From Gluconobacter kanchanaburiensis NBRC 103587 (GTDB taxonomy: Bacteria; Pseudomonadota; Alphaproteobacteria; Acetobacterales; Acetobacteraceae): DNA of 64,000 bases. How positions within the stretch are numbered: the stretch's first letter is position 1; every line of letters begins with the position of its first letter. Below are positions 4,901 through 7,834 of the stretch, piece after piece. The stretch spans positions 1 to 64,000 of the forward strand of contig NZ_BJVA01000004.1 of the NCBI RefSeq assembly GCF_007988905.1. Direction: 5' to 3'. A program made the translations under genes and the position numbers. The notes under the pieces are model-generated. The model worked only from the letters and a program-made list of their open reading frames with translations. It was not told where the DNA came from and searched no databases.

Positions 4901-5018
4901 ACAGAGAGAATTTCAAATCCAGGAGCATATCAAAGAAAATCGTCCGGATGTGTCTCCGGCCGCAGATGCCTGTCGTTCAGTAAAACTGTCAGGGTAGGTA
5001 GGGCTTTTTTTGTTCGTA

Positions 5019-5327
5019 TGGTGTCCGCGAGAGGATTCGAACCTCCGGCCCCAGGATTCTTACCACTTCGGTTTTCACCGCCACGCTATCAAGCGTGTTC
5101 GTGGTCTGGACTGTCTCTTCACCACGGTCACAAACGGGACCAAGGTGTCGCCCGTACAGTCTCTACACCTTCTTTCCGGCGAACCGGAGAGCTTGGCTCG
5201 GGATTGGCACGATCAAGACGATCAGAGCGTTCCCCGAATTTGAGCGAATCCACCATGCAGTTTCCGGACATGGCGCCCAATTCATACCTTAGGAATCCTG
5301 TGCTCTATCCTGCTGAGCTACGCGGAC
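5019..5327 (-). tRNA. tRNA-Arg(CCU), interrupted by a group I intron
   Basis: The 5' exon is 5327-5291 and the 3' exon 5058-5019. Spliced, they give a complete cloverleaf: acceptor GTCCGCG/CGCGGAC, D-stem GCTC/GAGC, anticodon stem CAGGA/TCCTG with loop TTCCTAA (anticodon CCU, arginine), T-arm GGAGG-TTCGAAT-CCTCT, discriminator A and an encoded CCA (5021-5019). Without removing 232 nt, no anticodon arm can form. The break lies between anticodon base 36 and base 37, the classic site of the alphaproteobacterial tRNA-Arg(CCU) intron. No other tRNA copy is visible in the window. Confidence 0.95.
5059..5290 (-). ncRNA. Self-splicing group I intron (Azoarcus-type, IC3-like)
   Basis: The 232-nt intron carries no open reading frame. 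P1 is visible: exon CCU plus intron AA (5293-5289) pairs with UUGGG (5280-5276), placing the diagnostic U.G wobble at the 5' splice site. P7 is GACTGT (5161-5156) with ACAGTC (5114-5109). Core segments GAGCCAAGC, GAAGGTGTAGAGACT and GTGGTGAAG match what I recall of the Azoarcus tRNA-Ile intron core. The intron ends in G (5059), the omega-G. Activity is inferred from these conserved elements. Confidence 0.92.
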
Positions 5328-5713
5328 GAACCGCTACTTCTTATCTCTGCTTGAATATTTCCGCAACCTTGATGCACTGTTTCAGTGTCCTGAGCGTTCT
5401 GGGAGGGGCTGCTTACAGGGAAATCAGGGCAGGGTGTTTCGGCTCTTTCAACGTTTTTTGGATACGTTAAGTGTCAGGGGCATCGTTACGGCCTTGCAAG
5501 GCGCCTTTTTTCCATCAAAAAGGTGTTCTGTTTTCTGGTAGCACCAAATCCTGAGTAGGATCGATCGCGTTTGCGTCCGGATATCCTACACAATACCTCT
5601 CATGTAGGGGGTTTTGCAGGTTTGACCGGGTTGAGAATTGCCATGATCTGCACTGTTGACGACCAAACCGCCAAAAGGCGCGAACGCCTCATACCCTCTC
5701 TGAGCTGGGGCTG
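5328..5713. other. Intergenic region, tRNA-Arg to BTAD regulator
   Basis: 386 bp without a supportable gene. It must hold the promoters of the minus-strand tRNA and the plus-strand regulator, but no convincing -35/-10 pair stands out. Overlapping palindromes GCCTTGCAAGGC (5491-5502) and AAGGCGCCTT precede a T-run at 5506-5511. CCTACA/TGTAGG repeats flank 5585-5608. A small hairpin AGGCG-CGAA-CGCCT lies about 25 bp before the regulator start. Confidence 0.5.
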
Positions 5714-7834
5714 ATGGTGGAAGTGACCAAGATGACTGATTCTTCATCCAGTCACGTCCGCGAGACTGATCCTACGCTTCTGCGTTTGAAACTGATTGGG
5801 CAGATGGAGGCAAAAACGCTTACTGGAGAGAGCGTTCTTCCGGTTGGCGGTAAGACACGGGCTCTCCTTGCTGTTCTTGCACTGTCTGACCGGAAGCCGG
5901 TTCTGCGGTCGCGGCTCGCTGAGCTGCTGTGGAGCCAGCGTCCGGAAGAAATGGCCCGTGCTTCCCTTAGGCAGGAAATTCACAGACTTCTGGACGCCTT
6001 GAGCCCACTGGGTGTGGATGTCATTGACGTTCAGCGGCACTCTCTTACGCTGAAGCCGGCGCTCACCTCGGTAGATGCGGAGAGACTGCTGACTGCCAGC
6101 TCGCGGACGATCGACGGCATTACCGTGCTCGAAGAGCCTCTTCTTGGTGAACTCGCGGGTGTGGATCCGGCGTTGGATGACTGGCTTTTTCAGCAAAGGG
6201 AGCGGCTTTGCGTCCATCTTCGGAATGTCTACGAGAATGCTGTCCTGGAGCTGACAGATCCTGATCAGGTCGACGAGGTGGCGGAACGTCTGTTGAAATT
6301 CGATAACCTCAATGAAACGGCCTGGCGTGCAAAAATCCAGACGGCGCTCCATCGAGGTGACCATACGCGCGCCGCAGGGCTGGCAGAACAGCTGACACAG
6401 CTTTTTAACACGTTCGATGGACATTCCATGGCGCCTGCAACGCAATCGTTGATTGCGGGTATTTCCATGGAACAGGGAGGTACTGAGGCGCACCGCGACT
6501 TTCCGGGGGCGTCAACATCTTCTGCAGGAGATGCGTCATTAGGTTTTGCGGGACGGCCGGATCCCATGCTCGCACTGCCTCTCCATTATACGACCATGGA
6601 GGGTTCCGCCGCGGAGCCAAGAAGAATCGCTTTGGTTTTTCTTCCGCCTCTTTGTGCGGATGAAACGTTGATGGATCACGGGCAGGCGGTTCGCGATCAC
6701 CTCGAACTCATCTTCGTCCACATGGGAACCTTTGATATTCTGGCTGCCCCGGTCGTCCCGCTGCCGGATCCCGTACAGGCTTCCGCTGTTTGTCGGGGGA
6801 TGGGAGCGGATTACATCATATCCGGCATGCTGCGGCGCAGTCCGGACCACGCGAATAACCGTCTGATCCTACGTGTGTTGGATGCCCGGCGTCATGGTGT
6901 TATTGTCTGGGGCACACATTACGACTTTCCCGGAGCGGGTCCTGAAACGGCGGAAAGCAGCCTGCTGACCCCAGCGCAGGCGATGCAATGGAACCTCTTT
7001 GTTGCCGAGGCGCGGCGTATTACCGGACGTCCTGACGCGGAGCTTTCGGCCTTGGGCATGGGGCTCAGGGCATTCATGCTTCTTCTGCGTCATGACGTAT
7101 CTTTTTTTGAAAGGGTAGGGGGGCTGCTTGAAGGTGCCTTCAACCTTGATGCCGATGACGGTGCAATCGCACTTATTGATGCGCTCTATTGTTATATCTG
7201 GTATCTGAATGACTGGAGTGAGGATGCTGATGCCATCCTTGAGCGGGGGCTGAAAAAAGTCCGGGACGCTATTTCCCTGCTGCCGGATCTGCACGCCGTT
7301 GAAGTGCTTCTTGCCACCTATCTTATGCATGATCCGGCTCGCCACACTACCGCGCTCTCTGTCGCTCGTGCCGCCGAAGCGGGAATCCTGAAAAACGATC
7401 GCAATCACAGGGATTCACCGGATTATCTTCTGGTCCGGATCGTTCTGGATCTGCTGGAAGGAAACCCGAGATCGGCAGCGAAAACCGTCAGGGTTCTTAC
7501 GGAAAATACCTGCCGTTCCCAGTTTCTGGAACTGCTGAGGCCTGTATTCATGATGGTCCTGCTGATCGGGGACGACTATCAGGAAGTGATTGCGATGGGC
7601 CGACTGTTCTGTGGTATTTTCCCGGCCTGCCCAAGTGTCTTGGTCTATTACCTCGTGGCGCTCGTAGAACTCGGGGATTTCCCGGAAGAGGCAGCGCGGG
7701 TCCGTCGACATCTGATGCGACTGGCTCCTGACCTGACAGTAGCGAAAATCATGTCGCGTTTTTCTTTTGTGTCACAGTCCCGTCGCGAGACCCTGGCTGA
7801 CGCTCTTCAGAAGGCCGGATTGCCTGTCAGCTAG
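5714..7834 (+). CDS. SARP/BTAD-type transcriptional regulator with FlgO/TolB-like domain
   Basis: 706-aa predicted cytosolic regulator. Residues about 23-113 form an OmpR-like winged helix (KTRALLAVLAL, RLAELLW, RASLRQEIHRL), followed by a bacterial transcriptional activation domain of helical repeats at about 118-225. After a polar linker, residues about 298-400 (beginning RRIALVFLPPL, with GADYIISGMLRR) resemble the TolB/FlgO-like module often joined to BTAD or CadC regulators, and the remaining 300 residues are helical, TPR-like. There is no receiver domain, kinase or cyclase motif. The start may be 5714 or the ATG at 5732. It is monocistronic, and its targets cannot be named from context. 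Such regulators are best known from actinomycetes but also occur in proteobacteria. Confidence 0.75.
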   Translation: MVEVTKMTDSSSSHVRETDPTLLRLKLIGQMEAKTLTGESVLPVGGKTRALLAVLALSDRKPVLRSRLAELLWSQRPEEMARASLRQEIHRLLDALSPLGVDVIDVQRHSLTLKPALTSVDAERLLTASSRTIDGITVLEEPLLGELAGVDPALDDWLFQQRERLCVHLRNVYENAVLELTDPDQVDEVAERLLKFDNLNETAWRAKIQTALHRGDHTRAAGLAEQLTQLFNTFDGHSMAPATQSLIAGISMEQGGTEAHRDFPGASTSSAGDASLGFAGRPDPMLALPLHYTTMEGSAAEPRRIALVFLPPLCADETLMDHGQAVRDHLELIFVHMGTFDILAAPVVPLPDPVQASAVCRGMGADYIISGMLRRSPDHANNRLILRVLDARRHGVIVWGTHYDFPGAGPETAESSLLTPAQAMQWNLFVAEARRITGRPDAELSALGMGLRAFMLLLRHDVSFFERVGGLLEGAFNLDADDGAIALIDALYCYIWYLNDWSEDADAILERGLKKVRDAISLLPDLHAVEVLLATYLMHDPARHTTALSVARAAEAGILKNDRNHRDSPDYLLVRIVLDLLEGNPRSAAKTVRVLTENTCRSQFLELLRPVFMMVLLIGDDYQEVIAMGRLFCGIFPACPSVLVYYLVALVELGDFPEEAARVRRHLMRLAPDLTVAKIMSRFSFVSQSRRETLADALQKAGLPVS

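Follow-up and report, generated by a model that had tools for sequence, protein, structure and literature searches.

The window, a 64,000-nt stretch of a contig from Gluconobacter kanchanaburiensis NBRC 103587, carries a tRNA-Arg(CCU) gene split by a 232-nt group I intron (Table 1). With its intron mode on, ARAGORN reports tRNA-Arg(cct) at c[5019,5327], both from a 450-nt stretch and from the full 64-kb window, and places an intron of 232 nt at nt 36/37, directly 3' of the anticodon. A first-pass annotation made from the letters had drawn the same exons and intron and suggested an intron-aware tRNA search as a check; that search recovers the gene at boundaries exact to the base. Removal of the intron joins ...TTCCT to AATCC..., and ARAGORN reads the spliced 77-mer alone as an intronless tRNA-Arg(cct) with an encoded CCA, in line with the earlier view that the cloverleaf is complete only once the intron is gone. 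Without introns, ARAGORN finds 0 tRNAs in the window, so the warning that tRNA finders may miss this gene was well placed.

Table 1. Positions, in window coordinates, of the split tRNA-Arg(CCU) gene and of the elements of the predicted intron fold.
Feature	Position	Strand	Basis and remarks
5' exon of tRNA-Arg(CCU), nt 1-36/37 region, reaching anticodon CCT	5291..5327	minus	ARAGORN intron mode and letters
Group I intron, 232 nt, without ORF, terminal G at 5059	5059..5290	minus	RF00028 44.7 bits, E 2.7e-10; ARAGORN
3' exon of tRNA-Arg(CCU), encoded CCA	5019..5058	minus	ARAGORN intron mode and letters
P1: CCTAA (5293-5289) with TTGGG (5280-5276)	5276..5293	minus	Splice-site U 5291 opposite G 5278; letters
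P2: CGCCATG with CATGGTG	5251..5275	minus	Compensatory changes, 116 introns
P3, 5' strand TCGCTC	5242..5247	minus	6 pairs with 5153-5148 in 167/167 distinct Arg introns, three pairs varying
P3, 3' strand GGGCGA	5148..5153	minus	6 pairs in 167/167 distinct Arg introns
P7, 5' strand GACT	5158..5161	minus	AGAGACT in 116/116, invariant, hence no covariation
P7, 3' strand AGTC	5109..5112	minus	ACAGTC in 116/116
P9 domain: ACCAC with GTGGT around two hairpins	5062..5105	minus	Consensus fold of 116 introns, hairpins with compensatory changes

The longest stop-free stretch on the sense strand of the intron is 53 codons, which leaves it too short for a homing endonuclease reading frame and bears out its earlier description as ORF-less. 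An antisense ORF of 150 amino acids (5018-5470, plus strand) overlaps the split gene and is taken as spurious. ARAGORN's intron mode makes a second call in the window, a tRNA-Gly whose intron would measure 1,020 nt; this was set aside as noise, as it spans protein-coding ORFs and has no match to the Rfam group I intron model, RF00028. Downstream of the tRNA gene lies an ORF resembling acyl-CoA synthetases (4824-2917, minus strand), and on its other side a regulator-like ORF (5714-7834, plus strand) is oriented away from it, both named by eye. Between 4800 and 5720 there are no flanking repeats that might be the trace of an integrated element, a simple scan gave 0 promoter-like sites, and the three terminator-like sites, with 1.1 expected in shuffles, are not telling.

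The intron matches RF00028 end to end (model positions 1-253) at 44.7 bits, with an E value of 2.7e-10 for the 451 nt searched, and in a search of its own genome it is the single match (E 4.1e-10). The curated cut-off of this model, its gathering score, is 50; the match falls about 5 bits under it, and at default settings Rfam therefore reports no hit in the window. The first-pass annotation had named the lack of a group I hit above threshold as a refutation of its claim. Taken literally, there is no such hit at the gathering score, but the E value makes the score borderline rather than a refutation, and the assignment to group I stands. Of nine genus members scored, three reach 50 (L046, L069 and L070, at 50.4-52) and six lie below it, namely the window, L064 (47.2 bits), and G003, G019, G022 and G023 (45.3-49.6). 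Nor does the intron model reach its gathering score at an Agrobacterium locus (L169) or a Rhodobacter locus (L165). The Rfam cut-off is tight for the tRNA-Arg(CCU) intron family, and the finding in the window is real. For annotation this means that tRNA-Arg(CCU) can be wrongly missing from the tRNA sets listed for such genomes, because a finder without an intron mode misses the gene and the intron scores below the Rfam cut-off.

The split gene is present in 26/26 genus genomes searched, the window's own included, with Gluconobacter taken in a wide sense that has Neokomagataea-named records inside it. This conservation bears on the simplest objection, that the exons belong to no tRNA gene and the whole arrangement is a chance resemblance. 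The blank results of both default scans, ARAGORN and Rfam, are what chance would give; the E value of the RF00028 match, the intron-mode cloverleaf and the covariation described below are not, and recurrence throughout the genus excludes it, so that we give this idea a negligible probability.

In a sample of the family Acetobacteraceae, RF00028 has a match in 68/249 genomes. Besides the window's, we examined 69 loci, of which 51 are in tRNA-Arg(CCU), 17 are inside other tRNA genes or close to them, and one is cut off; L091, at a contig end, was left unclassified. The split tRNA-Arg(CCU) gene occurs in at least 52 family genomes (own included), a lower bound, as the faster RF00028 filter missed further Arg introns. 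A 13-base signature of the unsplit gene is matched in 71/249 genomes, and 19 of the 20 such loci inspected are intact tRNA-Arg(CCU) genes by ARAGORN, the other lying at a contig end. The two sets of genomes overlap only in G003, where the apparent intact second copy was rejected as a chance 13-mer with no tRNA there. Across the class, evenly sampled, a strict exon-gap-exon pattern of the split gene is found in 6/385 genomes, four of the six from the family of the window.

A scan of named contigs by the same exon-gap-exon pattern returned at least 119 rows. Four of the 119 listed, all Acidobacteriota (L184, L198, L204 and L216), might have suggested spread to another phylum; they proved to be intact tRNA-Arg genes, downstream of which the second half of the pattern happens to occur. 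They were dropped before counts were made, which left at least 115. The matches listed come from Acetobacteraceae, Rhizobium, Agrobacterium, Bartonella, Azospirillum, Rhodobacter-like and other alphaproteobacterial genera, and records named 'Proteobacteria bacterium'. Insertion at nt 36/37 is thereby seen in at least 115 named contigs, a set chosen by that very site, and in the 51 family loci.

We aligned the window's intron with 115 others from the matches listed in the named-contig scan, and in these 116 introns the elements expected of a group I core recur. The P1 wobble pair at the splice site and the next C-G pair are kept in 115/116, the one other row being gapped, in accord with the U.G that the first-pass annotation had placed there. 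P2, P5, P6, P8 and P9 show many compensatory changes among these matches. P7, previously described as visible, has both strands present within motifs that are the same in every aligned intron (AGAGACT and ACAGTC, 116/116), and its 5' strand we take to be the guanosine site. P3 was counted separately, RNAalifold alone having paired CTC with GAG in its place; its six pairs hold, compensatory changes included, in all 167 distinct tRNA-Arg(CCU) introns, three of them varying among pair types such as U-A, C-G, G-C and A-U. The last intron base in the window is a G, a feature that the named-contig search pattern demanded and that is no independent test in that set. Such upkeep of core pairs is what selection for splicing would give. 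The core, which the first-pass annotation called Azoarcus-like, would make the intron a candidate for subgroup IC3, the type of the Azoarcus intron in pre-tRNA-Ile, which is marked by core and peripheral contacts of its own.

The genome of the window is a 2.92 Mb draft in 46 contigs, 99.97% complete. It has 42 tRNA-model matches, 41 of them above the cut-off; the 42nd, at a contig end, is by eye a truncated tRNA-Arg(ACG). ARAGORN assigns 39 different anticodons to these loci, those for arginine being ACG, CCG and UCU. CCU is absent from them, and a strict CCU anticodon pattern has no match in this genome either; tRNA-Ile(GAU) and tRNA-Ala(UGC) were likewise not seen in the same draft, which shows the limits of such an inventory. 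Within the limits of a draft genome, then, the window locus is the sole tRNA-Arg(CCU) gene found, and the earlier call to look for another CCU tRNA turned up none. An intact tRNA-Arg(UCU) gene is present. By ordinary wobble rules tRNA-Arg(UCU) can read AGG, so that AGG decoding need not stop without splicing. The first-pass statement that AGG decoding depends on splicing is thus upheld insofar as no second tRNA-Arg(CCU) gene was found, but a strict dependence does not follow, as the UCU tRNA could take over. In 34 long ORFs of the window, picked mechanically, AGG accounts for 76 of the 16,341 codons.

We are highly confident that the locus is the sole tRNA-Arg(CCU) gene found in this genome, split by a 232-nt ORF-less self-splicing group I intron of the alphaproteobacterial tRNA-Arg(CCU) family. 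The computational results establish the structure of the gene, its boundaries, the fold of the intron and their conservation. By analogy with the intron family, the splicing chemistry very probably operates here, and does so in the G. kanchanaburiensis cell. The intron RNA would fold into a P1-P9 ribozyme, in which exogenous guanosine would attack 3' of U 5291 at the splice site. In a second step the released 5' exon would attack 3' of the terminal G (5059), and the ligated exons would give a mature tRNA reading AGG. One could instead picture a decayed intron that no longer splices, with the tRNA gene reduced to a pseudogene and AGG read by tRNA-Arg(UCU). An RF00028 score below the gathering score could be a sign of decay, and the intact tRNA-Arg(UCU) gene would make the loss tolerable, but all core pairs are kept, the exons yield a perfect cloverleaf, and a dead gene is not expected to be carried by every genus genome searched. 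We therefore consider decay very improbable and favor a working, self-splicing intron.

How the intron came to be in this species is a separate matter. We built a quick maximum-likelihood tree from 181 introns, leaving out four loci with no clean splice assignment (L125, L129, L134 and L137); there the window intron is placed in a single tree with the other Arg introns, 167 in all. A set of 26 rows, each from the Gluconobacter group and one of them the window's, falls together (SH-aLRT 95), as do eight Komagataeibacter-type rows (SH-aLRT 95) and five Bombella-type rows (SH-aLRT 99). Bartonella rows are divided between one group of 16 (SH-aLRT 99) and positions elsewhere, Acetobacter does not form a single cluster, and two rows with Aurantimonadaceae names are placed among those of Acetobacteraceae, with forks that are mostly weakly supported. 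Within the genus, the tree favors inheritance of the intron, which looks not to have been newly acquired. The scattered rows of Bartonella, Acetobacter and Aurantimonadaceae argue against a simple story of descent, and transfer between families may have taken place.

A recent horizontal arrival of a mobile intron in this species, rather than descent within the genus, would suit the patchy distribution in the family (split in at least 52 of 249 genomes, intact pattern in 71, one of these by chance) and the weakly supported scatter of Acetobacter and Aurantimonadaceae-named rows. It would also be in keeping with a 1999 paper by Paquin, Heinfling and Shub, the title of which names horizontal transmission and transposition. 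Presence of the intron in every genus genome searched, the grouping of these introns as one set and the lack of an endonuclease ORF speak against it, and we think recent arrival very unlikely, if a little less so than decay; descent within the genus is the reading we prefer.

The finding is already known in kind, site and genus. In a footnote, PMC4596401 lists five acetic acid bacteria, Gluconobacter oxydans 621H among them, as having a tRNA(Arg) split by a group I intron homologue; 621H shares its genus with the window, and the footnote gives neither anticodon nor sequence. Excerpts of PMC7717549 describe BbgpI in tRNA-Arg(CCU) of Bartonella bacilliformis, which splices in vivo and self-splices in vitro, and credit the intron family to Reinhold-Hurek and Shub 1992 and to Paquin, Heinfling and Shub 1999. 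By that description BbgpI is alike in host tRNA and family and differs in alphaproteobacterial order, and other Bartonella introns, such as L167 and L175, are about 75-77% identical to the window's over 190-200 nt. The tRNA-Arg(CCU) intron of Agrobacterium tumefaciens has the same insertion point and terminal G; L169 is 76% identical to the window intron over 198 nt, so the earlier claim of a site shared with Agrobacterium holds. Lengths of the Agrobacterium introns are 223 nt (L169) and 236 nt (L228) versus 232 nt in the window, and the peripheral hairpins differ. The general distribution of group I introns is treated in passages of PMC4033280, PMC11408192 and PMC3984707.

Beyond tRNA-Arg(CCU), group I introns split other tRNA genes of related genomes. 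The host genes were assigned by joining trial exons and scoring the products with ARAGORN, and several had a near-equal alternative reading. A genome of the same genus (G020) has a second group I intron, of 212 nt, that splits tRNA-Lys(UUU) at nt 35/36 (L071, 1458-1745, minus strand). Its exons are identical base for base to the intact tRNA-Lys(UUU) of the window's genome. The split gene seems to be the sole copy in G020, because an 11-base motif of the intact tRNA-Lys(UUU) has no match there. We considered whether this intron arose from the one in tRNA-Arg of G020 and rejected the idea: its place in the tree is beside another tRNA-Lys intron and apart from the Arg introns of Gluconobacter, though its branch is long and was flagged by the program. 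A tRNA-Lys(UUU) intron also occurs in G103 (L105, 237600-238450 of G103:C4), 84% identical to L071 over 213 nt, in a genome that carries a tRNA-Arg(CCU) intron as well. A scan of the open-licence literature gave nothing fitting on group I introns in tRNA-Lys, tRNA-Thr or tRNA-Asn of bacteria or proteobacteria. A passage of PMC5733544 claims group I introns in cyanobacterial tRNA-Lys that measure a few dozen nt, far shorter than the introns seen here.

Similar introns were seen at further sites. In tRNA-Thr(GGU), split after nt 36, three introns of 197-208 nt are akin to the Arg introns (L106, L115 and L119). In tRNA-Arg(UCU), split after nt 34, group I introns of 227 and 233 nt were found (L138 and L143); the intact tRNA-Arg(CCU) pattern is matched in the genome of L143 (G248) and has no match in that of L138. 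Five group I introns lie in tRNA-Leu(UAA) (L088, L128, L131, L140 and L141), and another splits a Leu(CAA)-like gene (L087). All of these, tRNA-Lys included, match one another over about 100 nt or more, and each except L088 has an Arg(CCU) intron among its five best matches. We lean toward the view that in the Acetobacteraceae introns of this family have come to occupy further anticodon loops, with kin of the tRNA-Arg(CCU) intron in tRNA-Lys(UUU), Thr(GGU), Arg(UCU) and Leu(UAA), a more divergent one in Asn(GUU), and the split tRNA-Lys(UUU) as sole copy in one genus genome. If so, translation of AAA in that genome, and not just of a rare codon, would depend on self-splicing. The kindred introns found in further tRNA genes across the family would offer material for studying how group I introns change host genes. 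The intron in tRNA-Asn(GUU) (L075, in G166) has the top RF00028 score of the family sample, 78.5 bits.
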